A stretch of DNA of 40,741 bases from NCBI GenBank assembly GCA_023265195.1, contig JAHFUG010000011.1:1-40741 (forward strand), read 5' to 3'. A model generated the notes under the pieces. It did not search any database. It had not been told where the DNA came from and saw nothing but the letters and a program-made list of their open reading frames with translations. The stretch is from Blastocatellia bacterium (lineage in GTDB: Bacteria > Acidobacteriota > Blastocatellia > UBA7656). The position numbers were made by a program, and so were the translations under genes. Position 1 is the stretch's first letter. Every line of letters starts with the position of its first letter. Shown here piece by piece: positions 881-13,916 of this stretch.

Positions 881-2668
881 TTAACGCTGGTGGCACAGAA
901 TGCAGTTTTGCGTCTGGGCCATCCGGTCAATACGGTGAGTTCGCGAGGAGACCATCTCGGCGTGGCACTTGGCGCAGTCATACTTGCGCTCGACCACTTG
1001 AGAGTGAACCTTCTCAAAATGCCAATAGCCGTTGCGGCGAGCCGCCAGGAGCGATTCGAGATTGTGACAAGCCGAGCAATCCCGGCGGTACTCGAGGCCG
1101 CCGGTTGAGTCCATCGCGCGCCACGGGAATTTGATGGTTCCGTGCGGGCGCTTGTTCAACTGGGCGAGCGCCGTGCGGCCGGCAATCCTGCCAGTCACTA
1201 TTGAAGGGCCAAGGAATGTGCCTTCCAACCCCGCTTTTCCGTTTATGCCGCCGAAGCCGGTCAGCTCGCCAACGGCGTACAATCCGGGAATCGCCCGCCG
1301 CTTCTTGTCGATCACTCGACAGTTCATATCGACAAGAACGCCACCCATGCTCTTCCTCGTCACCGGAAAGAACTGCACCGCGAAAAATGGAGGAGTGACG
1401 ATCTTTGCCGGCCGCTCTTCATCTTTCTTAGTGAAGGCGCCGAACTCCGTGTCTTCGCCGGCGTCCACCATTTCGTTATACCGCCGTACGGTCTCGGCCA
1501 AAGCGGCGGGCGGCAGGCCGGCCGCGGCGGCGAGCCCCTCGATCGTCGAAGCAGTCCCGGTCAATTTCGGATTGTTCAATATCAGATTTTCTATTCGGGA
1601 GAAATCCCTCCACCCGGCCACCGTCACCTTGAATTTGTGTTTGCCTTCGTCGTCGAAGATAGCCCAATAAGTGGCCGGCTTCTGTTCGAGGAGAGCGACC
1701 ATGCCTTCTTTTGCGCTGGCGAGTTCCTTGATGAATCGCTTGCCTTGCGAGTTCACCCAAATCGAATCCTCATCGTACGCATTGATCCCGCGAGTCCCGG
1801 TGGGATCCAGAGGATCGGGCAAGCCGGTGATGTAGTTCCACTGATGATCGAGACGGGTCAAAACGCCGCCCGCGCTTTTGGCGATTTTGTGGCCCGACCC
1901 AACGGCGTTGACGCCGGCCCCGATCAAGAGGCGTTCGGGAAATCGGAGCGGCTTGGGCCATGACTCGCGCACGATCTCTAAGTTGCTTTGGAATCCGCCG
2001 GTCGCAAGCACCACCACGCGCGCCTTGATCTCCTGTTGAGCGCCGGTCCGCGAATCCAAGCCCTTTACTCCGGCGACCCTTCCGTTTCGCGACACCAGCG
2101 ACTCGACTTTGAAATTCCACTTATACGAAATGTTCGACTTCCCGAGACACTGTTTATAAATGGCGGTGACGAGGGCCAGGCCCCCGCCGCGCGTTTGGTG
2201 AAATCTCGGAACGCTGTTGCCGTAAGGCGCCTGTACCTCATCGAAGACAACTCCCATTGGAACCACCCAGTCATAAATGTCGCGCCTGGAATTATTGACG
2301 TAGTAGCGGGTCCATCGTGGATCGGGGTCTTCGCCCCAGGTAACGAAATCCTTATAGGCGAGTTCCGGGCTGTCCTGTATCTTTTTCCGTTCCTGCATCG
2401 GAGTGCCGACTATGCAGACGCCGCCGCCGGCCATAACTGCATGTCCACCGAACACCGAGTTCATGTCGACTACTCTTACGCTGACGGCGGCGCTGTTTCG
2501 GGCGATCTCGAGCGCGCAAGAGAGTCCTGAAATTCCCGCGCCCACGACCAGTACGTCAACGTCATAATCGGGACCGGCGGCCGTGATCCCGGCTGACCGT
2601 GACAGAGTAACTCCGAGGAGCATCGCTCCGAAGAATAGAACACCCGAGATCTTGCGGACTCTTTGCAT
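881..2668 (-). CDS. FAD-binding_2 flavoprotein (fumarate reductase/succinate dehydrogenase flavoprotein-like) with signal peptide and C-terminal tri-heme c tail
   Basis: ORF 881..2704; likely start at internal ATG 2668, preceded by AAGGAAAGGGACC. Hydrophobic N-terminus, then VDVLVVGAGISGLSCALEIARN (FAD dinucleotide-binding); GRIAGRTAL; three CXXCH motifs (CSACH, CAKCH, CILCH) at the C-terminus. Confidence 0.9.
   Translation of the reverse strand: MQRVRKISGVLFFGAMLLGVTLSRSAGITAAGPDYDVDVLVVGAGISGLSCALEIARNSAAVSVRVVDMNSVFGGHAVMAGGGVCIVGTPMQERKKIQDSPELAYKDFVTWGEDPDPRWTRYYVNNSRRDIYDWVVPMGVVFDEVQAPYGNSVPRFHQTRGGGLALVTAIYKQCLGKSNISYKWNFKVESLVSRNGRVAGVKGLDSRTGAQQEIKARVVVLATGGFQSNLEIVRESWPKPLRFPERLLIGAGVNAVGSGHKIAKSAGGVLTRLDHQWNYITGLPDPLDPTGTRGINAYDEDSIWVNSQGKRFIKELASAKEGMVALLEQKPATYWAIFDDEGKHKFKVTVAGWRDFSRIENLILNNPKLTGTASTIEGLAAAAGLPPAALAETVRRYNEMVDAGEDTEFGAFTKKDEERPAKIVTPPFFAVQFFPVTRKSMGGVLVDMNCRVIDKKRRAIPGLYAVGELTGFGGINGKAGLEGTFLGPSIVTGRIAGRTALAQLNKRPHGTIKFPWRAMDSTGGLEYRRDCSACHNLESLLAARRNGYWHFEKVHSQVVERKYDCAKCHAEMVSSRTHRIDRMAQTQNCILCHQR
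890..1078 (-). other. Three CXXCH heme c attachment motifs (1064-1078, 962-976, 890-904)
   Basis: Reverse-complement codons read C-S-A-C-H, C-A-K-C-H and C-I-L-C-H in the flavoprotein frame. Confidence 0.9.
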
Positions 2669-2892
2669 TGCAGGTCCCTTTCCTTGCGGAGAGCTTTGTC
2701 TCAAAGCGCGGAGATCATGCAGACGAGAAGACGGTCAGGAGATTCCGGTTGGCTCGCATCTTCCTGGCTTGGGCCTCCCACGCTTCTTTCCCGCTTGTGA
2801 TCTCGCGCATCTTTGTGGCTGGCGCCTTATTTCCGCCGAGCGCCATTTAGGGGCCGTAAGAAAAATAAGTTCCCTTTTTCGAGGGAGTTCGC

Positions 2893-2954: not shown

Positions 2955-3433
2955 GCAGTTGGGGGATCGTTCAATACCAACGTGGCGTCGATTGGCCATG
3001 AACACATTCCTAACCAGTCGAGGCCCTTTGTGATCAGCGGCGGTCTCGTGCCAATAGGCGGCATATGAACAATCCCCCAACTGCGAGGCCGTGTGAAAAC
3101 TCCGAGAATCCCACCAACGCAGTTGGTGGATTGTTCAGACACAGCCTACAAAGGGCGCACGCCGGACTCCCGTTTTCCTTTCCCTCTTTCCCTCGCGTTG
3201 CGAGAAGAAAATAGGACAACGAGGGGACCGCAGGCAGCTTTGCTTGTAGGCTGTATATGAACGATCCACCAACTGCGTTGGTGGGATTCGGGGAAGGGAT
3301 CTGGCGCGCCTCCTCGTCTAGGCTGTATATGAACAATCCACCAACTGCGTTGGTGGGATTCGGCGAAGGGATCTGGCGCGCCTCCTCGTCTAGGCTGTAT
3401 ATGAACGATCCACCAACTGCGTTGGTGGGATTC
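2955..3433. repeat. Cluster of palindromic REP-like units, core CCACCAACTGCGTTGGTGG, in both orientations, including 2.6 tandem copies with 72-bp period
   Basis: Forward copies start at 3247, 3319 and 3391 (TAGGCTGTATATGAAC[G/A]ATCCACCAACTGCGTTGGTGGGATTC). Inverted copy at 3106-3150 (GAATCCCACCAACGCAGTTGGTGGATTGTTCAGACACAGCCTACA). Degenerate copies at 3064-3084 and (inverted) 2955-2972. Confidence 0.92.
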
Positions 3434-3513
3434 ACTGGCTGCTCTCTTTTTTCTTGAAACAACACAGGATTAAGACACTACTCAAAACCGGGAAGTTATT
3501 TTTTTGCGCCTCC

Positions 3514-5964
3514 TTACCGATAGCGCAGGGCGATAACTGGATCGACTCGAGCCGCTCGGCGCGCCGGAAAGTAGCTCGACAAAAATGAGATCGTGGAAAG
3601 AAACATGCCCGTGGCGGCGAATATCACGCCGTCAATCGGGCCGACGCCATAGAGAAGATTAGAAATGACCCTTGTGGCGCCGAGAGCGAGACCCACGCCA
3701 AGGGCGACGCCCGTCAGCGTCAAGACCAGCCCGCCGCCTACTACCAACCTGAGAATATCTTTTCGCTGAGCGCCGAGGGCGTTGCGAATACCGATTTCCT
3801 GGGTGCGAAGGCTCACCGAGTAGTTCATGATGCCGTATACGCCGACCGCCGCCTGCGCCAGAGCTAACGCGGCAAGCAGAGCCAGCAGAATCGTGTTGAC
3901 GCGCGGCTGCGATATTGAATCCGACACAACCTGCTCCATTGTCTTGACGTCGTAAACAGGCTGGCCGCTATCAACCTGAAGCACGGCTTGGCTTATTGAA
4001 GGGATAAGCCTGGTTGGCTCAAGGCTGGTGCGCGCGGCCAGAGCCATGAAGCTCCAGGGGTGTTGGACGAAAGGCGAGTACATCTCGAGGCCTGAATCGG
4101 CGTCAAGGCTGGTGTGCTTGACGTCCGCGACGACTCCAACGATCTCTCTTGTCTTCATCCCGCCGTGCCGTATGACCACGCGCTTTCCGAGAGGGTCTTC
4201 ACCGGGCCAGAAGCGATTCGCGGCTGTTTCGTTGATGATTATGACCGGGGTGCTCGTTTCATTGTCCCGGCCGCTGAAACCGCGTCCTTTCTTGAGCGGG
4301 ATTCCCATCGTCCGAAAGTAATCCGGACTGATGGCCCGATAGTGAGTTCTCAGTCTTTCGCCGGGGCCGGCAGGGGGCCGGCCTTCAATCTCGAAGCCGA
4401 CCACCAAGAGCGAGGCGGTCAGCGGCAGGGTGCTGATTACACTAACGGACGAAACACCGGGGAGCGTTTCCGTTTTTTCGAGTAACCGCCGGACGAAAGC
4501 ATTGATCTGCGGTTTCTCGGCGTAACGGTTCGGAGACAAGGTCAATTGCATCGTCAAAACGTTGTCGGTCTTGAAACCGGGATCGACTCTTTGAAGAGAC
4601 AAGAAGCTCTTTATCATCAACCCGGCGCTGATCAACAGCACCTGCGCCACGGCGATTTCAGCGATTACGATAATGCTATACGTTCGCCGGCGGTGGCCGC
4701 CTCCGGCTTGGCTTCGCGAACCTTCTTTTAACGTCTCGACCAGGTCAATCCTTGAAATCCGCAAGGCCGGCGCCAGCCCGAAACCGACGCCGGCTGCCAG
4801 CGAGAGGAGCAGCGTAAAGCCGAGGACAAGGCCGTCAAACCTGACTTCATTCAGCCGCGGAATGTTGGCGGGGTCAAGCGACATTAATAACTTGACGCCA
4901 AGGAAGGCCAGGAGCATCCCCAAAATGCTGCTCAGTAGAGAAGCAAGAAGGCTCTCGGTTAGGAGTTGCCTGATCAGCCTGAACCGGCCGACCCCGAGCG
5001 CCAGCCGCAACGCGATCTCCTTTTGCCGGGCCGTGGCTCTCGCGAAAAGAAGACTGGCCACGTTGGCGCATGCGATCAGCAGCACGAAACCAGCCGCAGC
5101 CAGAAGAACGGTGAGCGCGAGGTCGATCTTGCCCAGTATCTCTTCCTTGATCGGAAAAACAGTAACGCTGTACTGGGCATTCGCGTCCGGATAGCGCTCC
5201 TGGAGATTCTTCCCGATGGCCAACACGTTGTCCTTAGCCTGGTTGACGCCGACTCCCGGCTTGAGCCTTGCAATGGTATTGAGAAACCTGAGTCCGCGAT
5301 TGGAAAGACCCTCCACGGTCGTGACCGAGGGCAATCTCAAGTGGTCGCCCCCGTCAAAGCACATCGGAACCCATAGCTCGTCGTCCTTGTTGGGCGCCCG
5401 AAACTCCGCCGGCGCTATTCCTATGACGGTGAAGCCGGCGTTGTTGATCTCCACGGTTTTCCCGATCAATTCCTGATCGCCGCCAAACCGGCGCCGCCAC
5501 AAGCCATGGCTAAGCACAACGACGCGATCCGACTTGGAAGAGTCTTCGTCGGGAGAAAAGCAGCGGCCCCGCCCGGCTGTCACTCCAAGCACGGAAAAGA
5601 ATGACGCGGTGACAAAGGACCCCTTTAATTGCTCGGGCTCGCCGGCGCCGGTCAAGGTGAAGTCATCGTATGTATACGCGCCAAGCTCATCCAACGACTG
5701 GTTGGAGTCGCGGTAATCGGCGTAATCGGGTGGAGAAAGCCCGGTTCTTTCCAGGCCGCTCTTCAGATTCTGGTTGCAGATTCTGACTATGCCCTCCGGG
5801 TCCTTGTAGGGCAGCGGCTTGATTACGATGGCGTTGATCAGACTGAACACCGCGGTGTTGACGCCGATGGCCAGCGACAGCGCGCCGACCACAACCAGGG
5901 TAAAAACGGGGTTGTTGATCAAAACCCGTATAGCGTATTTGATATCTTGAATCAGGCTCTCCAT
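3514..5964 (-). CDS. MacB/FtsX-type ABC permease, ADOP-like (duplicated orphan permease)
   Basis: ORF 3514..6003; MESLIQDIKYAIRVLINNPVFTLVVVGALSLAIGVNTAVFSLINAI typical of ADOP N-termini; MacB_PCD and two FtsX-like permease halves (VLLAAAGFVLLIACANVASLLFARATARQKEIALRLALG; IGIRNALGAQRKDILRLVV). Likely start is the internal ATG at 5964; alternative GTG at 6003 overlaps the NRPS stop codon (TAGTG). Confidence 0.92.
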   Translation of the reverse strand: MESLIQDIKYAIRVLINNPVFTLVVVGALSLAIGVNTAVFSLINAIVIKPLPYKDPEGIVRICNQNLKSGLERTGLSPPDYADYRDSNQSLDELGAYTYDDFTLTGAGEPEQLKGSFVTASFFSVLGVTAGRGRCFSPDEDSSKSDRVVVLSHGLWRRRFGGDQELIGKTVEINNAGFTVIGIAPAEFRAPNKDDELWVPMCFDGGDHLRLPSVTTVEGLSNRGLRFLNTIARLKPGVGVNQAKDNVLAIGKNLQERYPDANAQYSVTVFPIKEEILGKIDLALTVLLAAAGFVLLIACANVASLLFARATARQKEIALRLALGVGRFRLIRQLLTESLLASLLSSILGMLLAFLGVKLLMSLDPANIPRLNEVRFDGLVLGFTLLLSLAAGVGFGLAPALRISRIDLVETLKEGSRSQAGGGHRRRTYSIIVIAEIAVAQVLLISAGLMIKSFLSLQRVDPGFKTDNVLTMQLTLSPNRYAEKPQINAFVRRLLEKTETLPGVSSVSVISTLPLTASLLVVGFEIEGRPPAGPGERLRTHYRAISPDYFRTMGIPLKKGRGFSGRDNETSTPVIIINETAANRFWPGEDPLGKRVVIRHGGMKTREIVGVVADVKHTSLDADSGLEMYSPFVQHPWSFMALAARTSLEPTRLIPSISQAVLQVDSGQPVYDVKTMEQVVSDSISQPRVNTILLALLAALALAQAAVGVYGIMNYSVSLRTQEIGIRNALGAQRKDILRLVVGGGLVLTLTGVALGVGLALGATRVISNLLYGVGPIDGVIFAATGMFLSTISFLSSYFPARRAARVDPVIALRYR

Positions 5965-6002
5965 CACCACCTCGAACGATACGATATTCGGTCCGCCTCC
6001 CA

Positions 6003-9000
6003 CTATCGGCGTTTGGATTCGCCAACGAGATCGTACTCGGCCGCAACGCTCCTGAATCGCGGAAGGCTCGATAAGGCGAGCAGGGGGGTTTCGCTAACCG
6101 CAATGATTATCTCGTTGAAAACCGCCAGCATCTCACGGACGGTCGACGATCTGAACAATTCCGTTCTGTAAACCACCGATACGTCGACGCCGGCCGGCGT
6201 TTCCCGGCAGAACATCGACAGGTCGAATTTCGACGCGGTGACGCCGGTTGGATATGGCTCTATGCTAAATCCGTCCGGCTTCGGCGGCGGCGCCGGAAAG
6301 CTTTGCAGTCCGAAAATCACTTGATAGAGCGGCATGTCGCCGAGATCGCGATCCTGCTGAAGCGCCTCCGCGACTTTTGGAATTGAGACATACCGGTGCG
6401 CGTATGCTTCCAGTACTTCCTCGCGAACTTGTCTCAGCAGCTCCGCGAACCTAAGACCGGCCGAGAGCCTCGTGCGGATCATCAGCGTGACCACGAAGAG
6501 CCCGATCAAGTTCTCCGTCTCGAGCCGATTCCGGTCCGCGTCGGGCGAACCGACGACGATGTCTTCCTCTCCCGTAACGGAATAAAGCATGGCCTTAAAA
6601 GCCGCCAACAGCGCAACGAACAATGTGACGCCTTGCCCGGCCGCGGCCGAGTTGAGTTTCAGCTTCAACTCGTTGGGCAGAATGAGCGTCTCGACCGCGC
6701 CGTCGTAAGAAGGCTCTTCAGGCCGCGGCCAATCAGCCGGCAGTTTCAGCAACGTTGGAACGTCTCGAAGCTTTTCCACCCAATATTCCAACTCGGAGTC
6801 GCCGTGGGTTCGCTGCCGCCAATCAACGATTTCTCTGTATTGGAAAGCCGGTTCGGGCAGCGCGGGTCTCTCACCGGCCGAGAGGGCGCGGTAGAGCGAG
6901 ATGAGTTCGTTCATGAGAACGCCAAGCGACCAGCCGTCGAATATGACGTGGTGGACGGACAGGATCAGCAATTGATCCGCATCGTCGAATTGCGCAAGCG
7001 TAAAGCAAAAGAGCGGCCCTGAGAGCAAGTCGAACCGCCTATTGACCTCTCTCTCAATCAACGCCCGCGCCGCGGCGATTCGTTCCTCGTTGGAGGTTTC
7101 TCTTAGGTCAACCAGGTTGAAGACGGAATCAAGCGGCGCGTCGACCGCTTGCAACGGCCTTCCCGATTCAAAGACTATTCTAGTCCGCAGCACGTCGTGC
7201 CGCGTTGCTATCTCCGTTATCGCTTGCTTTAGAGTTCTCGGATCGAGCGCGCCGGTAATCTTCAAAGCGAAGCACATGTTCGAAACGGATCTCCATCTGG
7301 CTCGAGTCATCTCAAACCAAAGCATCCGCTCCTGCGAGTAAGAGAGCGGGGCCGGGGAATGCCGGTCGAGCCGGAGCAACGGCTCCGATTCGACCTTCGC
7401 ATCGGCGGCTAATTCCCTCTCGACATAGTCGGCGAAATCGGCCAGCTTGGGCAGCTCGAAGCACTTGCTCAGCGGAACAGGAACCTGAAACACCTGTTGA
7501 ACGCGGGCGGCCGCACGCACGGCGAGAAGCGAATGGCCGCCCAGCTCGAAGAAGTTATCATAGGCGCCAATTGACCCGGCGCCGATTACCTCGGACCATA
7601 TACCGGCCAGTATCTCCTCGACCGTGCTTCTCGGCGCGACGAACTCGGCTCGGCTGCCTATTGTTTCCGGTTGTGGCAAAGCCCGTCTGTCGAGCTTGCC
7701 ATTTGGAGTCAGGGGCAAGCGGTCCAGCGTCAGCACGGCCGCGGGCGTCATGTAATCGGGAAGCCTCTCTCTGAGACGGCGCCTGACGCTTTGCTCGCTG
7801 AATGAGGCGCGATCTACTGGAACGACGTACGCGACCAATTGTTTCTCGCGCCGGCCGTTTTCAACCGCGGCCACCGCCGATTCAGCCACGTCCGGGAGAC
7901 GATTCAGTTCGGCCTCGATCTCACCCATTTCGATTCTGAAACCGCGAATCTTCACTTGATGATCGAGCCGTCCCAGGTACTGGATATCGCCGCCGGGAAG
8001 GAACCTCGCCAAGTCACCGGTCTTGTACAATCTCTCTCCCGGTTCAGCGAAGGGGTCGGGTATGAACTTCTCCGCGGTAAGCTCGGGGCGATTGACGTAT
8101 CCGTTAGAGAGCCCGACGCCGCCGATGTGCAGCTCTCCAGGAATGCCGATTGGGGATGGCGCTAGAGTGTGATCGAGCACGCAAATCCGAATGTTCGCGA
8201 TCGGGCGGCCGATCGGTATCGGCCCAGCCGGCTGCCCTGGGCGGCAGCGCCACGATGTAACGTCGATGGCGGCCTCCGTTGGGCCATAAAGGTTGTGCAG
8301 CTCCGCGTTGATGCGAGAAAAAAAGCGCTCTTGCAATTCCCACCCAAGCGCCTCGCCGCTCGATATCACCCGTTTAACACCGCCGCATTTTTTCAGATCA
8401 GCCGATTCAAGGAAGACTTGCAGCATCGAAGGAACGAAATGCAGAGTGGTAACCCGGCTTCGAGCGATCATCTCCGCGAGGTACTCGGGATCCCGATGAC
8501 CCTCGGGCCGGGCGAGCACCAAACGGGCGCCGGCGATAAGAGGCCAGAACAGTTCCCACACCGAGACGTCAAAACTAATCGGCGTCTTTTGCAGCACTCG
8601 GTCATCCCCGGTCAGGCGGAATGCCTCCTGCATCCAGATCAGGCGATTGCAAACTCCGCGATGCGTATTCATGGCGCCCTTGGGCGCGCCCGTCGAACCG
8701 GAAGTGTAAATCACATACGCAAGGTTCAGCGGCGTGACCCCGGTATTCAGATTAGTCTTGCTCTCACACGCAATCTCGCCGCTATCGGCGTCCACTCGGA
8801 TAACGATAAGGTCATCCCGGCGGACCGTTTCATGAAATGAGGCGGCGCCAATTTCCGAAGACGTGGAATCCTTTGCGCCGTTATCGCCGGCCGTCGACTC
8901 TCGCGCTTTGGACATCGGCGGCAAGCCGGCGGCTTGTCCAACATCGGGCGTTTCGCGGCGGGAACCGATCAGCACGCGGATTCCGGCGTCCTGGATCATA

Positions 9001-12000
9001 TGGTTCAACCTTGGCGTCGGCAAATCCGGGTCGAGTGGAACGTAGGCCGCGCCTGCTTTGAGCACTCCGAGAACCGCCACAACCATCTCGATCCCGCGTT
9101 CGAGCGAAACGCCGGCAAGGCCGCCCGGATGAAGCCCCATTCTCCGCAAGTAAGCCGCCAGTTGATTGGCCCGGTTGTTGAGCTCTTCATAAGTCAAATA
9201 GCGGCCTTCGAATTCAACGGCGACGGCTGCGCCGCGGCGCTCAACCCGCCGTTGAAACATCTCGTGAAGGGTGACTTCCAAATCATAATCTCTCGCGTTC
9301 GCGTTCCATTCGCGCAGCACCTGTTGAGTCTCGGGCTCCGTCATCAAGGATATCCGGCTTAACGGCTGATCGAGATCGCGGACTATCGATATCAGGGCTT
9401 GATTGAAATGGCTCAACATTCTTTCGATGGTCGCTCGATCATACAAATCGGTGTTGTACTCGAGGTCCAGCACTACGCCGGAGGGCCCATCGCTTGCCGC
9501 GAAGTTGAGATCGACTTTCGCCGTACTCGTATGAAGGGCGAACCCGCTGACCGTCAGTCCCTGGAGATCGAGCGCCGGAGCCGGCGTGTTCTGGAGAGTC
9601 ATCATTACTTGAAACAGCGGATTGCGGCTCGCGCTTCGCTCCGGCTGCAACTCTTCCACGAGCCGCTCGAAGGGCAGTTCCTGACGCGCGTAAGCCTCCA
9701 GCGCGGCATTTCTCGCCCGCCGCAACAGGCCGGCGGCAGTCGGCTCGCCAGCGAGGTCGACCTGTATTAGAAGGGTGTTTACGAAAAAGCCGATCAGGCC
9801 CTCGGTCTCAATTCGATCCCTGTTCGCCGCCGCCACTCCTACCGCGACCTGCTCCCGGCCACTGTATCGGCTCAGCACGAGATCGAGCCCGGCCAGAAGA
9901 GACATGAACATAGTCAGTCCTTCTCGACGGCACGCGCGCTTGAGATCGCCCTCCAATGCTCCGCCCAGCGGCAGCCGAGCTGTCGCCCCGTGATGCGACT
10001 CGACAATTGGGCGAGGCCGGTCGGTGGGAATCTCGAAGGTTCTCCCGGTCCATTTACGTTTCCAGTACTCCAGGAGCGAATCCAACACCTCGCCTTCGAG
10101 CCGCTGCCGTTGCCAGCGCGCATAGTCGATGTATTGGATCGGCGGTTCCTCGATCGTCGACCGGCGCCCGCTTAGCCGATCCCGGTACAGCGCGCTTACT
10201 TCCCTGAGCAAGACTCCGATCGACCAGCCGTCGGATACGATGTGGTGCATAACGACCGACATGGAGTGTCTATCGCCGGCAAGCCTGATGGCGATCCACC
10301 TGATAAGCGGTCCGTTAGCCAGGTCGAATGTCCGGCGCGACTCTTTACGTTGTATCTCGTATGCGAGTGATTCGCGCAGCGATTCATTTTCTATAGCCGA
10401 TAAATCGACGAGCGATAGGGCCTGATATTCGCGATCGCGCACTTCTTGCGCCGGTTCCCCGCCTTCCTCGATAAACGCCGTTCTGAGGACTTCGTGACGT
10501 TCGACGATTTCGTTCAGGCTGAGTTCGAGCGCTTTCTGGTTGAGATAGCCCTCCAGCCTGGCTGCCAGAGGGACGTTGTATACGGGACTGCCGCCGTTCC
10601 ATTGATGCAGGAACCAGAGACGTTGCTGAGCGAAGGATAGCTTCGCGCGGCGCGCGCCTTCCGCTTTGATCGAGCCGGGCGCGGGCGAACCAATCGACTT
10701 CCGCGCTTCTTCGATCTTACCGGCGAGGGATTGAACGGTTGGGTTGCTGAACAGATCCGTTAGCGTGACATCGATCTCGAAAGCCGCTCGTATTTTGGAC
10801 ACGGCTTGCGCGGCAAGCATGGAATGGCCGCCCACTTCAAAGAAGTCGTCGAATATTCCGACTCTCCGAACGTCGAGCAAGTCTTCCCAAACGCCGGCGA
10901 CTATCTCCTCGACCGGCGTTCTCGGACGTTCATATTCCACTCGCTCGTCATCGGCGTCCGGATCAGGCAACGCGCTCTTATCGATCTTTCCATTCGGGGT
11001 AAGAGGAATTTGCGTCAGCCGCACCAGGTGATTGGGAACCATGTAGTCGGGCAGGTTCTGCTTTAGATAACGTCGAAGCTCGGACTCTCCAAGCGCCGCC
11101 CCAGGCCGGGTGAGAAAATATCCCACCAGTTTTTTCGCGGTCGCGCCGCCTTTGATTATCACCAGAGCCTCGGCGATCGCGGGATGGCCATTGAGCATCG
11201 CCTGGATCTCCGCCGGCTCGATCCGATAACCGCGGACCTTCACCTGGTCATCCATGCGGCCAAGGAAAGCAAGCTTGCCGTCGGCGAGATATTTCACTTT
11301 ATCGCCGCTTCTATATGTCCGGGCTCCACTGACCGCCGAGAAGGGGTCGGGCCGGAACTGCTCGGCGGTGAGATCCGGCCGATTAAAATATCCCCGAGCC
11401 AAGCCGTCGCCTCCAATGCAAAGCTCGCCTGAAGCGCCGATTGGAAGTGGATCGAATCCAGCGTCGAGCACATACGCCTTCGCGTTGGAAACCGGTCTGC
11501 CGATCGGAATTGACGAAGCGTCGCAGTCACCGCTCTCGACGACGTGAAACGTCGCATACGTCGTGCATTCAGTCGGACCGTAGATGTTGATCACTCGACC
11601 GAAGCGCCGGTTAGCAAGCACTTCGCCAACACGTCGAGGATCGGCGGCCTCTCCGCCGAAGAGCAGATCGCGCACGCCGGCGAACGCCCAAGGCGCGCGC
11701 CGCGCGGTTTCGTTCAACAGCGCGGTAGCAATAAGCAGGATGCTGACCGCGTGGTTCTCCAGTTCCTCCGCGAGAACAGGCGGTGAGAGCACCGCATCCT
11801 TCGGCAGTATTGCTAATCGCGCCCCGTTGATCAGCGCGCCCCAGATCTCGAACGTCACAAGGTCAAAAGAAGCGTTCGACACCTGGCCGACGCAGTCTGA
11901 CGGACTGAACCTCGCGTGGTTTGTGTCGATCAAGAGATTTGCAATCGCGCGGTGAGTTATCGAAGCGCCCTTTGGCGTTCCGGTCGAGCCCGACGTGTAC

Positions 12001-13916
12001 ATCACGTAAGCGAGGTTATCCGGGGTAACCCGGCGCGGCGGGTTCTCATCGCCGTGGAACTGAACTTCCGACTGAACGAGATCGAGACAGACCACTTCGG
12101 TTCCGGTTTTCGGGAGAGACTCCACGAATCCGCTTGTCGTCAAAATCAAACGCAGCGGCGCGCCAACGATCATGGCCTCGAGCCGCGCCTTCGGATAGGC
12201 GGGGTCGAGCGGCGTGTAGCAGGCCCCAGCCTTCAGAATGCCCAGCATTCCAATCACCATCAGCGAGCTTCTGTCCAGGCACAACCCGATCGGAGTTTCG
12301 GGGCGGGTTCCCATCCGCGCCAACCGATGCGCGAGCGCATTGGCGCGCCTGTTCAACTCTCCATATGTGAGGCGCTCGTCCAGGTGTATTACCGCTATCG
12401 ACTCGGGTCTGGCGAGAACCTGCCGTTCAAAGAGTATCGGCAGCCCTTCCTCCGTGTAATCGCGAGCCGAGTCATTCCACTCATGGATGATCTGCCGCCG
12501 CTCCTCCTCGCACAGCAAATCCATCTCGCCAATCTTCAGTTTCGGATTCAGCGCGAGAATCGCGAGCACCCGTTCGTAATGGTGAAGCATTCGCTGAACG
12601 GTCGGTGAGTCATAGAGTTCGGAGCTGTACGACATCTCCGCTTTCAGGCCGTCGGCTTCGGTTAGCGAAAGGCTCAGGTCGAACTTGGCCGTTCCGGTAG
12701 GCAAGTCCAGCAGGTCGATATGAAGCCGTGGAAGCTCGATGGGCGGCATCGGCGCGTTCTGAAGCACCATCATCACTTGAATGATGGGAGAATGGCTCGC
12801 CGCCCTTTCGGGCCGCAGCTCCTGAACGAGTTTCTCGAAAGGAAGCTCCTGGTGTTCGTAAGCTTCGAGAGTCGCCGCCGCCACGCCGCGTAGCGCTTCG
12901 TCGAGACTCTTGCCTGCGTCCATGTTGGATCTGATGACGATCGTGTTCACGAAGAGACCGATCAGATCCGCAACGTCGCCGCTGAGTCTGTTCGCGATGG
13001 GCGCGCCCACCAAGACGTCGCTTTGTCCGCTGTACCGGTAGAGCAGGATGTTGAAAGCCGTCAAGAGCGTCATGAATAAGGTCGCGCCTTCTTGTCTGCT
13101 CAGCAGTTTCAATCGTTCGGTTAACTCCTCGGAAAGAGAAGAGGCGACGGACCCGCCGGCCCAGGTTGTTGCATTCGGCCTAGGCCGATCAGTGGGAAGG
13201 TCGAGGTATGACGAGCTTCCCGCGAGCTTCGCCGTCCAGTAATCCAATTCTTGTTTCAGCGCCGCTCCGGACAACGCGCGCCGCTGCCTGCGCGCGAAAT
13301 CGGCGTATTGCGTCGTCATCTCGCCAAGCGGCGAAGGCCGGCCATCGAGATAAGCTTCGTATAATGCGCACAACTCCCTGACCAGCACTCCCATCGACCA
13401 CCCGTCGGCGACGACGTGGTGCAAGACGATTACCAACAGGTGTTCGGAACCAGTTAGCCGGAGCAGCTTCCATCTAACCAACGGCCCGGCGCTCAAGTTG
13501 AACGGGCGCCTCGCTTCTCGCAGGGCGGCCGAAAGCGTGGCGGTCCGCCTTGAATGCTCGGCGACTTCACTCATGTCGACTAGGGCGATGGGATAATAGG
13601 CGCCCGGGAGCGCTACTTGAATGGGAAGCGCATCCACCGTAGCGAAAATCGTGCGCAGCACTTGATGCCGCCGCACGATTTCGTTGAGCGATTGCTCCAG
13701 AACTCGGCGATCGATCGCGCCCGTGAGCCTGATAGCGCAGGGCACATTGTACAGCGGCGCTTCAGGGGCCATTTCATTCAACACCCACAAGCGCTCCTGG
13801 GCGAATGAAAGAGGATTTCGCAACGCCAGCAGGCGGCGTTTGTCGGGCGAAAGAGCCTTTATTCGGCCGATGATTTCACTCACTTCGATGCACCGTTGCG
13901 GCGGAGGTCCGATCAA
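6003..13916 (-). CDS. Non-ribosomal peptide synthetase, C-A-T-C-A-T-C (terminal C domain, no TE)
   Basis: 2637-aa ORF, TTG start overlapping the upstream stop (TTGA). C motifs HHVVADGWS, HHIVSDGWS, HHVIFDGWS; A-domain YTSGSTGTPKG / YTSGSTGAPKG; T motifs GGHSMLA and GGHSLLA; ends after the third C domain with ...AAEYDLVGESKRR. Confidence 0.97.
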   Translation of the reverse strand: MIGPPPQRCIEVSEIIGRIKALSPDKRRLLALRNPLSFAQERLWVLNEMAPEAPLYNVPCAIRLTGAIDRRVLEQSLNEIVRRHQVLRTIFATVDALPIQVALPGAYYPIALVDMSEVAEHSRRTATLSAALREARRPFNLSAGPLVRWKLLRLTGSEHLLVIVLHHVVADGWSMGVLVRELCALYEAYLDGRPSPLGEMTTQYADFARRQRRALSGAALKQELDYWTAKLAGSSSYLDLPTDRPRPNATTWAGGSVASSLSEELTERLKLLSRQEGATLFMTLLTAFNILLYRYSGQSDVLVGAPIANRLSGDVADLIGLFVNTIVIRSNMDAGKSLDEALRGVAAATLEAYEHQELPFEKLVQELRPERAASHSPIIQVMMVLQNAPMPPIELPRLHIDLLDLPTGTAKFDLSLSLTEADGLKAEMSYSSELYDSPTVQRMLHHYERVLAILALNPKLKIGEMDLLCEEERRQIIHEWNDSARDYTEEGLPILFERQVLARPESIAVIHLDERLTYGELNRRANALAHRLARMGTRPETPIGLCLDRSSLMVIGMLGILKAGACYTPLDPAYPKARLEAMIVGAPLRLILTTSGFVESLPKTGTEVVCLDLVQSEVQFHGDENPPRRVTPDNLAYVMYTSGSTGTPKGASITHRAIANLLIDTNHARFSPSDCVGQVSNASFDLVTFEIWGALINGARLAILPKDAVLSPPVLAEELENHAVSILLIATALLNETARRAPWAFAGVRDLLFGGEAADPRRVGEVLANRRFGRVINIYGPTECTTYATFHVVESGDCDASSIPIGRPVSNAKAYVLDAGFDPLPIGASGELCIGGDGLARGYFNRPDLTAEQFRPDPFSAVSGARTYRSGDKVKYLADGKLAFLGRMDDQVKVRGYRIEPAEIQAMLNGHPAIAEALVIIKGGATAKKLVGYFLTRPGAALGESELRRYLKQNLPDYMVPNHLVRLTQIPLTPNGKIDKSALPDPDADDERVEYERPRTPVEEIVAGVWEDLLDVRRVGIFDDFFEVGGHSMLAAQAVSKIRAAFEIDVTLTDLFSNPTVQSLAGKIEEARKSIGSPAPGSIKAEGARRAKLSFAQQRLWFLHQWNGGSPVYNVPLAARLEGYLNQKALELSLNEIVERHEVLRTAFIEEGGEPAQEVRDREYQALSLVDLSAIENESLRESLAYEIQRKESRRTFDLANGPLIRWIAIRLAGDRHSMSVVMHHIVSDGWSIGVLLREVSALYRDRLSGRRSTIEEPPIQYIDYARWQRQRLEGEVLDSLLEYWKRKWTGRTFEIPTDRPRPIVESHHGATARLPLGGALEGDLKRACRREGLTMFMSLLAGLDLVLSRYSGREQVAVGVAAANRDRIETEGLIGFFVNTLLIQVDLAGEPTAAGLLRRARNAALEAYARQELPFERLVEELQPERSASRNPLFQVMMTLQNTPAPALDLQGLTVSGFALHTSTAKVDLNFAASDGPSGVVLDLEYNTDLYDRATIERMLSHFNQALISIVRDLDQPLSRISLMTEPETQQVLREWNANARDYDLEVTLHEMFQRRVERRGAAVAVEFEGRYLTYEELNNRANQLAAYLRRMGLHPGGLAGVSLERGIEMVVAVLGVLKAGAAYVPLDPDLPTPRLNHMIQDAGIRVLIGSRRETPDVGQAAGLPPMSKARESTAGDNGAKDSTSSEIGAASFHETVRRDDLIVIRVDADSGEIACESKTNLNTGVTPLNLAYVIYTSGSTGAPKGAMNTHRGVCNRLIWMQEAFRLTGDDRVLQKTPISFDVSVWELFWPLIAGARLVLARPEGHRDPEYLAEMIARSRVTTLHFVPSMLQVFLESADLKKCGGVKRVISSGEALGWELQERFFSRINAELHNLYGPTEAAIDVTSWRCRPGQPAGPIPIGRPIANIRICVLDHTLAPSPIGIPGELHIGGVGLSNGYVNRPELTAEKFIPDPFAEPGERLYKTGDLARFLPGGDIQYLGRLDHQVKIRGFRIEMGEIEAELNRLPDVAESAVAAVENGRREKQLVAYVVPVDRASFSEQSVRRRLRERLPDYMTPAAVLTLDRLPLTPNGKLDRRALPQPETIGSRAEFVAPRSTVEEILAGIWSEVIGAGSIGAYDNFFELGGHSLLAVRAAARVQQVFQVPVPLSKCFELPKLADFADYVERELAADAKVESEPLLRLDRHSPAPLSYSQERMLWFEMTRARWRSVSNMCFALKITGALDPRTLKQAITEIATRHDVLRTRIVFESGRPLQAVDAPLDSVFNLVDLRETSNEERIAAARALIEREVNRRFDLLSGPLFCFTLAQFDDADQLLILSVHHVIFDGWSLGVLMNELISLYRALSAGERPALPEPAFQYREIVDWRQRTHGDSELEYWVEKLRDVPTLLKLPADWPRPEEPSYDGAVETLILPNELKLKLNSAAAGQGVTLFVALLAAFKAMLYSVTGEEDIVVGSPDADRNRLETENLIGLFVVTLMIRTRLSAGLRFAELLRQVREEVLEAYAHRYVSIPKVAEALQQDRDLGDMPLYQVIFGLQSFPAPPPKPDGFSIEPYPTGVTASKFDLSMFCRETPAGVDVSVVYRTELFRSSTVREMLAVFNEIIIAVSETPLLALSSLPRFRSVAAEYDLVGESKRR

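Follow-up and report, generated by a model that had tools for sequence, protein, structure and literature searches.

Palindromic repeats in a Blastocatellia genome and their probable link to a two-domain Y1/HUH transposase with a split active site

RESULTS AND DISCUSSION

The repeat cluster and its setting

The window (the whole stretch of 40,741 nucleotides analyzed here) contains a repeat cluster at 2955-3433, with a flavoprotein gene (881-2704, minus strand) and a MacB/FtsX-type permease gene (3514-6003, minus strand) as its neighbors. Farther along the same strand (6003-13916) is a 2637-aa open reading frame that by eye resembles a non-ribosomal peptide synthetase. The first-pass annotation described the cluster as six units of one hairpin. 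Four of these are intact copies of the CCACC palindrome CCACCAACTGCGTTGGTGG, one in minus and three in plus orientation (Table 1). As annotated, the three plus copies are direct tandem repeats with an exact 72-bp spacing; these direct units have 97% identity, linkers included. The inverted copy is also as well preserved as claimed, being 90-95% complementary over 43-51 nt. The two units thought to be decayed (2955-2973 and 3055-3085) are in fact half-hairpins of a sister palindrome, CCCCCAACTGCGTTGGGGG (CCCCC...GGGGG type), and each stops in the loop.

Table 1. Coordinates of features in the repeat cluster of the window and loci of a MITE-like element elsewhere in the same genome
Feature	Position	Strand	Remarks
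Sister (CCCCC-type) element remnant	2955-3084	+	Both ends within hairpin loops; related center and flank at C574
Sister minus half-hairpin GCAGTTGGGGG	2955-2965	-	End in loop
Sister plus half-hairpin CCCCCAACTGC	3074-3084	+	End in loop; adjoins recurrent element end at 3085
Recurrent left end of CCACC element, GAGGCCGTGTGAAAACTCCGAGAATC	3085-3110	+	Common to aligned copies elsewhere, mostly adjoining palindrome loop
Intact palindrome	3111-3129	-	GTAG on minus strand at 3149-3146, 16 nt off
Non-coding center separating minus and plus hairpins	3150-3245	+	Conserved across aligned copies
First plus unit	3246-3284	+	GTAG 3246-3249, 16 nt, hairpin 3266-3284
Second plus hairpin	3338-3356	+	72 bp further; GTAG changed to CTAG
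Third plus hairpin	3410-3428	+	72 bp further; GTAG changed to CTAG
Right flank	3434-3482	+	Near identical (reverse complement) to C574 CCCCC-element flank
MITE-like element in hairpin loops	L172, L167, L078, L175, L007		G000 contigs C249, C215, C299, C282, C101

The annotation proposed that the cluster could affect transcript ends. A terminator consensus scan of the cluster region gave four terminator-like matches compared with a chance mean of 1.3, and one of these falls on an intact hairpin (minus strand, 3356-3338). An Rfam search of the same region returned chance-level matches only. A CRISPR or attC array was ruled out because the complete linkers between the direct repeats are near identical, with no variable spacers or cassettes. 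The right flank of the cluster ends in TTAAGACACTACT, the mirrored form of which, GTAGTGTCTTAA, occurs at C574 and C149; a further repeat may end here.

The palindrome is dispersed through the genome

We counted copies in the window's genome (7.5 Mb in 686 contigs) by pattern and BLAST searches. Exact copies of CCACCAACTGCGTTGGTGG number 50, as read by eye from the match list, so the motif is not unique to this locus. Allowing up to two mismatches, there were 96 matches genome-wide in the forward and 96 in the reverse orientation, and none with a reversed control pattern. BLAST with the cluster as the query gave 188 matches. Many copies lie at contig ends, as expected since repeats break assembly. 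Both the high copy number of dispersed palindromes and their arrangement as inverted pairs and clusters are as in REP/BIME sequences.

The CCACC palindrome was also found in G005 and G006, two genomes that belong to a different genus of the family. It was absent, at up to one mismatch, from a genome of the same genus (G001) and from 35 other relatives, and the repeat had no relatives in plasmid collections. The search for an empty site in relatives gave none, and the syntenic region was not recognized in them.

The anatomy of the units is conserved

Each unit consists of GTAG, 16 nt, the hairpin, and then in most cases GATTC or TATTC. Of the 45 CCACC units of the window's genome, 41 have a gap of exactly 16 nt between GTAG and the hairpin, and in most other palindrome families the majority of units have a gap of 15-17 nt; a comparable GTAG occurs at 0.6% of random window positions. 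C533, L149, and L136 depart wholly or partly from this spacing. Units pair inversely around a conserved center of approximately 95 nt, and tandem arrays repeat every 68-72 bp. At C584, CCACC and CCCCC units are mixed within one array. Several element copies have right ends that stop inside the loop of the plus hairpin, and one has a mirrored GAGACTGTG end. In REP/BIME sequences, by contrast, GT[AG]G lies 0-2 nt from the hairpin foot (PMC6006769). We also considered IS608-style guide pairing of the hairpin foot with GTAG, which by eye was inconsistent between families.

Palindrome arrays flank genes for a tandem transposase

The first-pass annotation suggested a RAYT-type transposase. The Y1_Tnp profile (PF01797) matches 18 places in the window's genome, including three pairs each within one open frame. 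Related genomes encode a tandem protein of approximately 275 aa made of two fused IS200-type TnpA (Y1/HUH) domains. In G005, the tandem gene (L083:1356-2186, minus strand) has three minus and three plus exact copies of the window palindrome on its sides. One of the three pairs in the window's genome, a homologous tandem gene on contig C290, has CCCCC hairpins on both sides, three minus on one and six plus on the other. Further homologues, each with arrays of its own palindrome on its flanks, were found in C279, in G002, and in metagenome-assembled genomes with the labels Pyrinomonadaceae, Blastocatellia, Pirellulaceae, and Anammoximicrobium. The C533 locus has an array on one side only, and no clear array was found at the Verrucomicrobia locus L148. 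Thus, a Y1 gene flanked by the same palindrome, as the annotation proposed looking for, exists in the relative G005; the tandem gene in the window's genome is flanked by the sister palindrome only, and no CCACC-flanked tandem gene was found in that genome as assembled.

The tandem gene is rare, with a match in five of 396 genomes of the phylum, one of them partial only. It was not detected in G006, where the repeat is present, and G005:C3 carries a frameshifted copy. The tandem protein had no relative in plasmid and viral collections; of two weak viral matches, one (L183) looks like an ordinary single TnpA, and the other (L184) was not open in the frame examined. Two further repeats were seen near tandem genes. 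A separate GCCCTCCGTTAGGAGGGC hairpin array with a spacing of approximately 48 bp lies 3' of the tandem gene's neighbor (G000:C290 L063:5237-5912), and in G005:C4 the CCACC arrays are flanked by CTAGCAGGCTGCTGAAAAAG and its mirror (L083:1145-1165 and 2940-2962), an outer end that differs from the one in the window's genome.

A hallmark of RAYTs is the dispersal of inverted palindromes that carry GTAG (PMC6006769), and the window's genome has several single-domain Y1 genes. The hairpins could thus be classical REP/BIME sequences moved by an ordinary single-domain RAYT (TnpAREP), with the tandem protein incidental. We regard this as quite unlikely, since the palindrome is beside none of the single-domain loci examined, the arrays flank the tandem genes instead, and GTAG is 16 nt away from the hairpin and not at its foot. 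The tandem proteins themselves score 128-149 bits with NCBIfam transpos_IS200 (cut-off 55) and 49-65 bits with REP_Tyr_transpos, below its cut-off of 80, and the transposase does not qualify as a member of the RAYT/TnpAREP family. The interpretation in the annotation is thus supported in part: a relative has a palindrome-flanked Y1 gene, but its product joins two IS200-type TnpA domains and is not a classical RAYT.

The catalytic residues are divided between the two domains

We read 16 distinct tandem proteins from three phyla. In all 16, the first domain (D1) keeps the Tyr and Gln of YxxxQ and has no intact HxH (AHVQ, DNLR, DHIR, DHLR, TDVK, etc.), whereas the second domain (D2) has an intact HxH and no longer has the Gln. 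The Tyr position of D2 is Phe in nine proteins (one by eye), Trp in two, and Tyr in five. Where it is Phe, this residue aligns with Tyr132 of ISDra2, which is the residue mutated in the 2xo6 Y132F structure. Three proteins found after this rule had been set (L197, L199/L217, and L215) conform to it, two of them being partial or frameshifted. By contrast, most single-domain relatives retain both motifs.

AlphaFold predicts two TnpA folds for the tandem protein (pLDDT 85, pTM 0.82), and in Foldseek searches the predicted folds are nearest to ISDra2 and IS608 TnpA. Pfam, NCBIfam, and AlphaFold/Foldseek thus agree on the Y1/HUH TnpA fold of the IS200/IS605 family; the HUH motif and catalytic Tyr, which that family has in one domain, are here split across two. 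In a tree of ten D1 and ten D2 domains, the two sets form separate clades (support 98/94 and 100/99), so that a single fusion event is enough to account for the sample.

The active site of IS608 TnpA is assembled in trans from two chains, one of which contributes H64 and H66 and the other Y127 and Q131 (PMC5934647). The simplest reading of the residue pattern is that the tandem protein is a fused dimer with exactly one composite site that resembles that of IS608. In such a site, D2 would provide the metal-binding HUH motif and D1 the nucleophilic Tyr and the metal ligand Gln; we infer the inter-domain geometry that this would take.

Neither domain alone has a full IS200 active site, arrays in tandem can grow by slippage, and one tandem copy (G005:C3) is frameshifted, all of which might be expected if both domains were inactive and the repeats were drifting beside a dying transposase, with arrays growing only by replication slippage and recombination. 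However, the two domains have lost complementary residues, and those that remain (Tyr, Gln, and two His) do not vary across phyla, a constancy that drift would not maintain. The copies are also dispersed as well as tandem. We therefore consider decay a very improbable explanation.

A split-site transposase as the likely agent of dispersal

The dispersed copies, inverted pairs, arrays, and palindrome-flanked Y1 gene of the relative all support the proposal of the first-pass annotation that these are BIME/REP-like mobilized hairpins. We think it likely that the cluster consists of REP/BIME-like, non-autonomous hairpins that are substrates of the split-site tandem Y1/HUH TnpA. The hairpins are most likely recognized by this two-domain transposase of IS200-type TnpA descent, which would bind them as single-stranded DNA and use its composite site to cleave one strand near the GTAG 16 nt upstream. 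Units would then spread as inverted pairs and 68-72-bp arrays. The same enzyme would presumably have moved the window's own copies; this link is drawn from the G005 locus, the gene beside the sister palindrome on C290, and the mixed arrays. Across Acidobacteriota, Planctomycetota, and Verrucomicrobiota, one ancient fusion of IS200-type TnpA followed by complementary residue loss has probably produced a one-site, single-chain transposase and a REP-like system apart from the classical RAYTs.

As a comparison, the REP/BIME/REPIN sequences and their RAYTs ('REPtrons') share with this system dispersed GC-rich hairpins, inverted pairs, clusters, GTAG, and a Y1 gene flanked by the palindrome. They differ in having GTAG at the hairpin foot, and head-tail dimers are absent or rare among them (PMC3733652), whereas direct tandem arrays are common here and the two-domain, split-site transposase resembles that of IS200. 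The TnpA proteins of IS200/IS605 elements (IS608, ISDra2) are similar in the Y1/HUH fold, YxxxQ, the NCBIfam match above cut-off, a tetranucleotide some 16-19 nt upstream of the hairpin, and a site built from two TnpA units. Unlike these, the tandem protein is one chain with complementary losses that would leave one site versus two, many hairpins in inverted arrays surround its gene, and hundreds of copies lack the gene. Acidobacterial TIRYTs (Di Nocera et al., 2013) are also Y1 transposases flanked by inverted repeats, but they were described with both Tyr and HUH conserved and with no mention of a two-domain form (PMC3733652).

A two-in-one, split-site transposase appears to be undescribed. 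We found no tandem split-site TnpA in the open-licence literature, and an earlier description is possible. In the work of Quentin et al. (PMC6006769), which divided TnpA-Y1 proteins among three classes, unusually long proteins were left out and both motifs had to be present within a single core domain, so tandem split-site proteins would probably not have been retained. The spread of REPs and the relationship between RAYTs and IS200/IS605 transposases are open questions, and the tandem family joins IS200-type catalytic motifs with REP-type genomic behavior. Through the natural Tyr-to-Phe changes and HUH losses, evolution has itself put the trans active site of TnpA to the test. If the enzyme does have one site, two sites per dimer are not required for hairpin dispersal.

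A second element that appears to target hairpin loops

The CCACC element starts with GAGRCYGTGTGAAAACTCCGAGAATC. Of 34 distinct occurrences of its GAGRCYGTGTGAAAA end, 26 come directly after a palindrome's 5' arm and loop, and this palindrome often belongs to another family; the same pattern is found immediately ahead of 0.4% of window positions. Some insertions have the 3-nt loop repeated on both sides (GTA at L172 and GAA at L078). This end looks like that of a terminal-inverted-repeat element that targets hairpin loops. Insertion into REPs is known for IS1397, IS621, and other insertion sequences (PMC1525189).

These data raise the alternative that the hairpins have spread mainly within such an element (ends GAGRCYGTGTGAAAA), and that an unseen transposase of the DDE type, with palindrome loops as its targets, has moved it. 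The GAGRCYGTGTGAAAA left end of the CCACC element occurs at many loci, both ends are present in one copy (C4), and the frequent junctions with loops fit this idea. However, loops have to exist before they can serve as targets, arrays without these ends occur, also around tandem TnpA genes and in other phyla, and the G005 elements have the same palindrome with different ends. We consider this alternative unlikely as the main route and continue to favor the tandem transposase, although a second element type (GAGRCYGTGTG ends) may be responsible for part of the dispersal.

The putative loop-targeting element explains the nesting in the window and not the GTAG-hairpin units. The CCACC element would have become linked to the older sister CCCCC element at its loop, or have inserted there, and the CCACC plus arm would have been amplified in tandem. 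A short MITE-like element with ends GAGGCTGTGTGAAAAGTC, the inverted ends being approximately 132 bp apart, is also found repeatedly within hairpin loops (Table 1).
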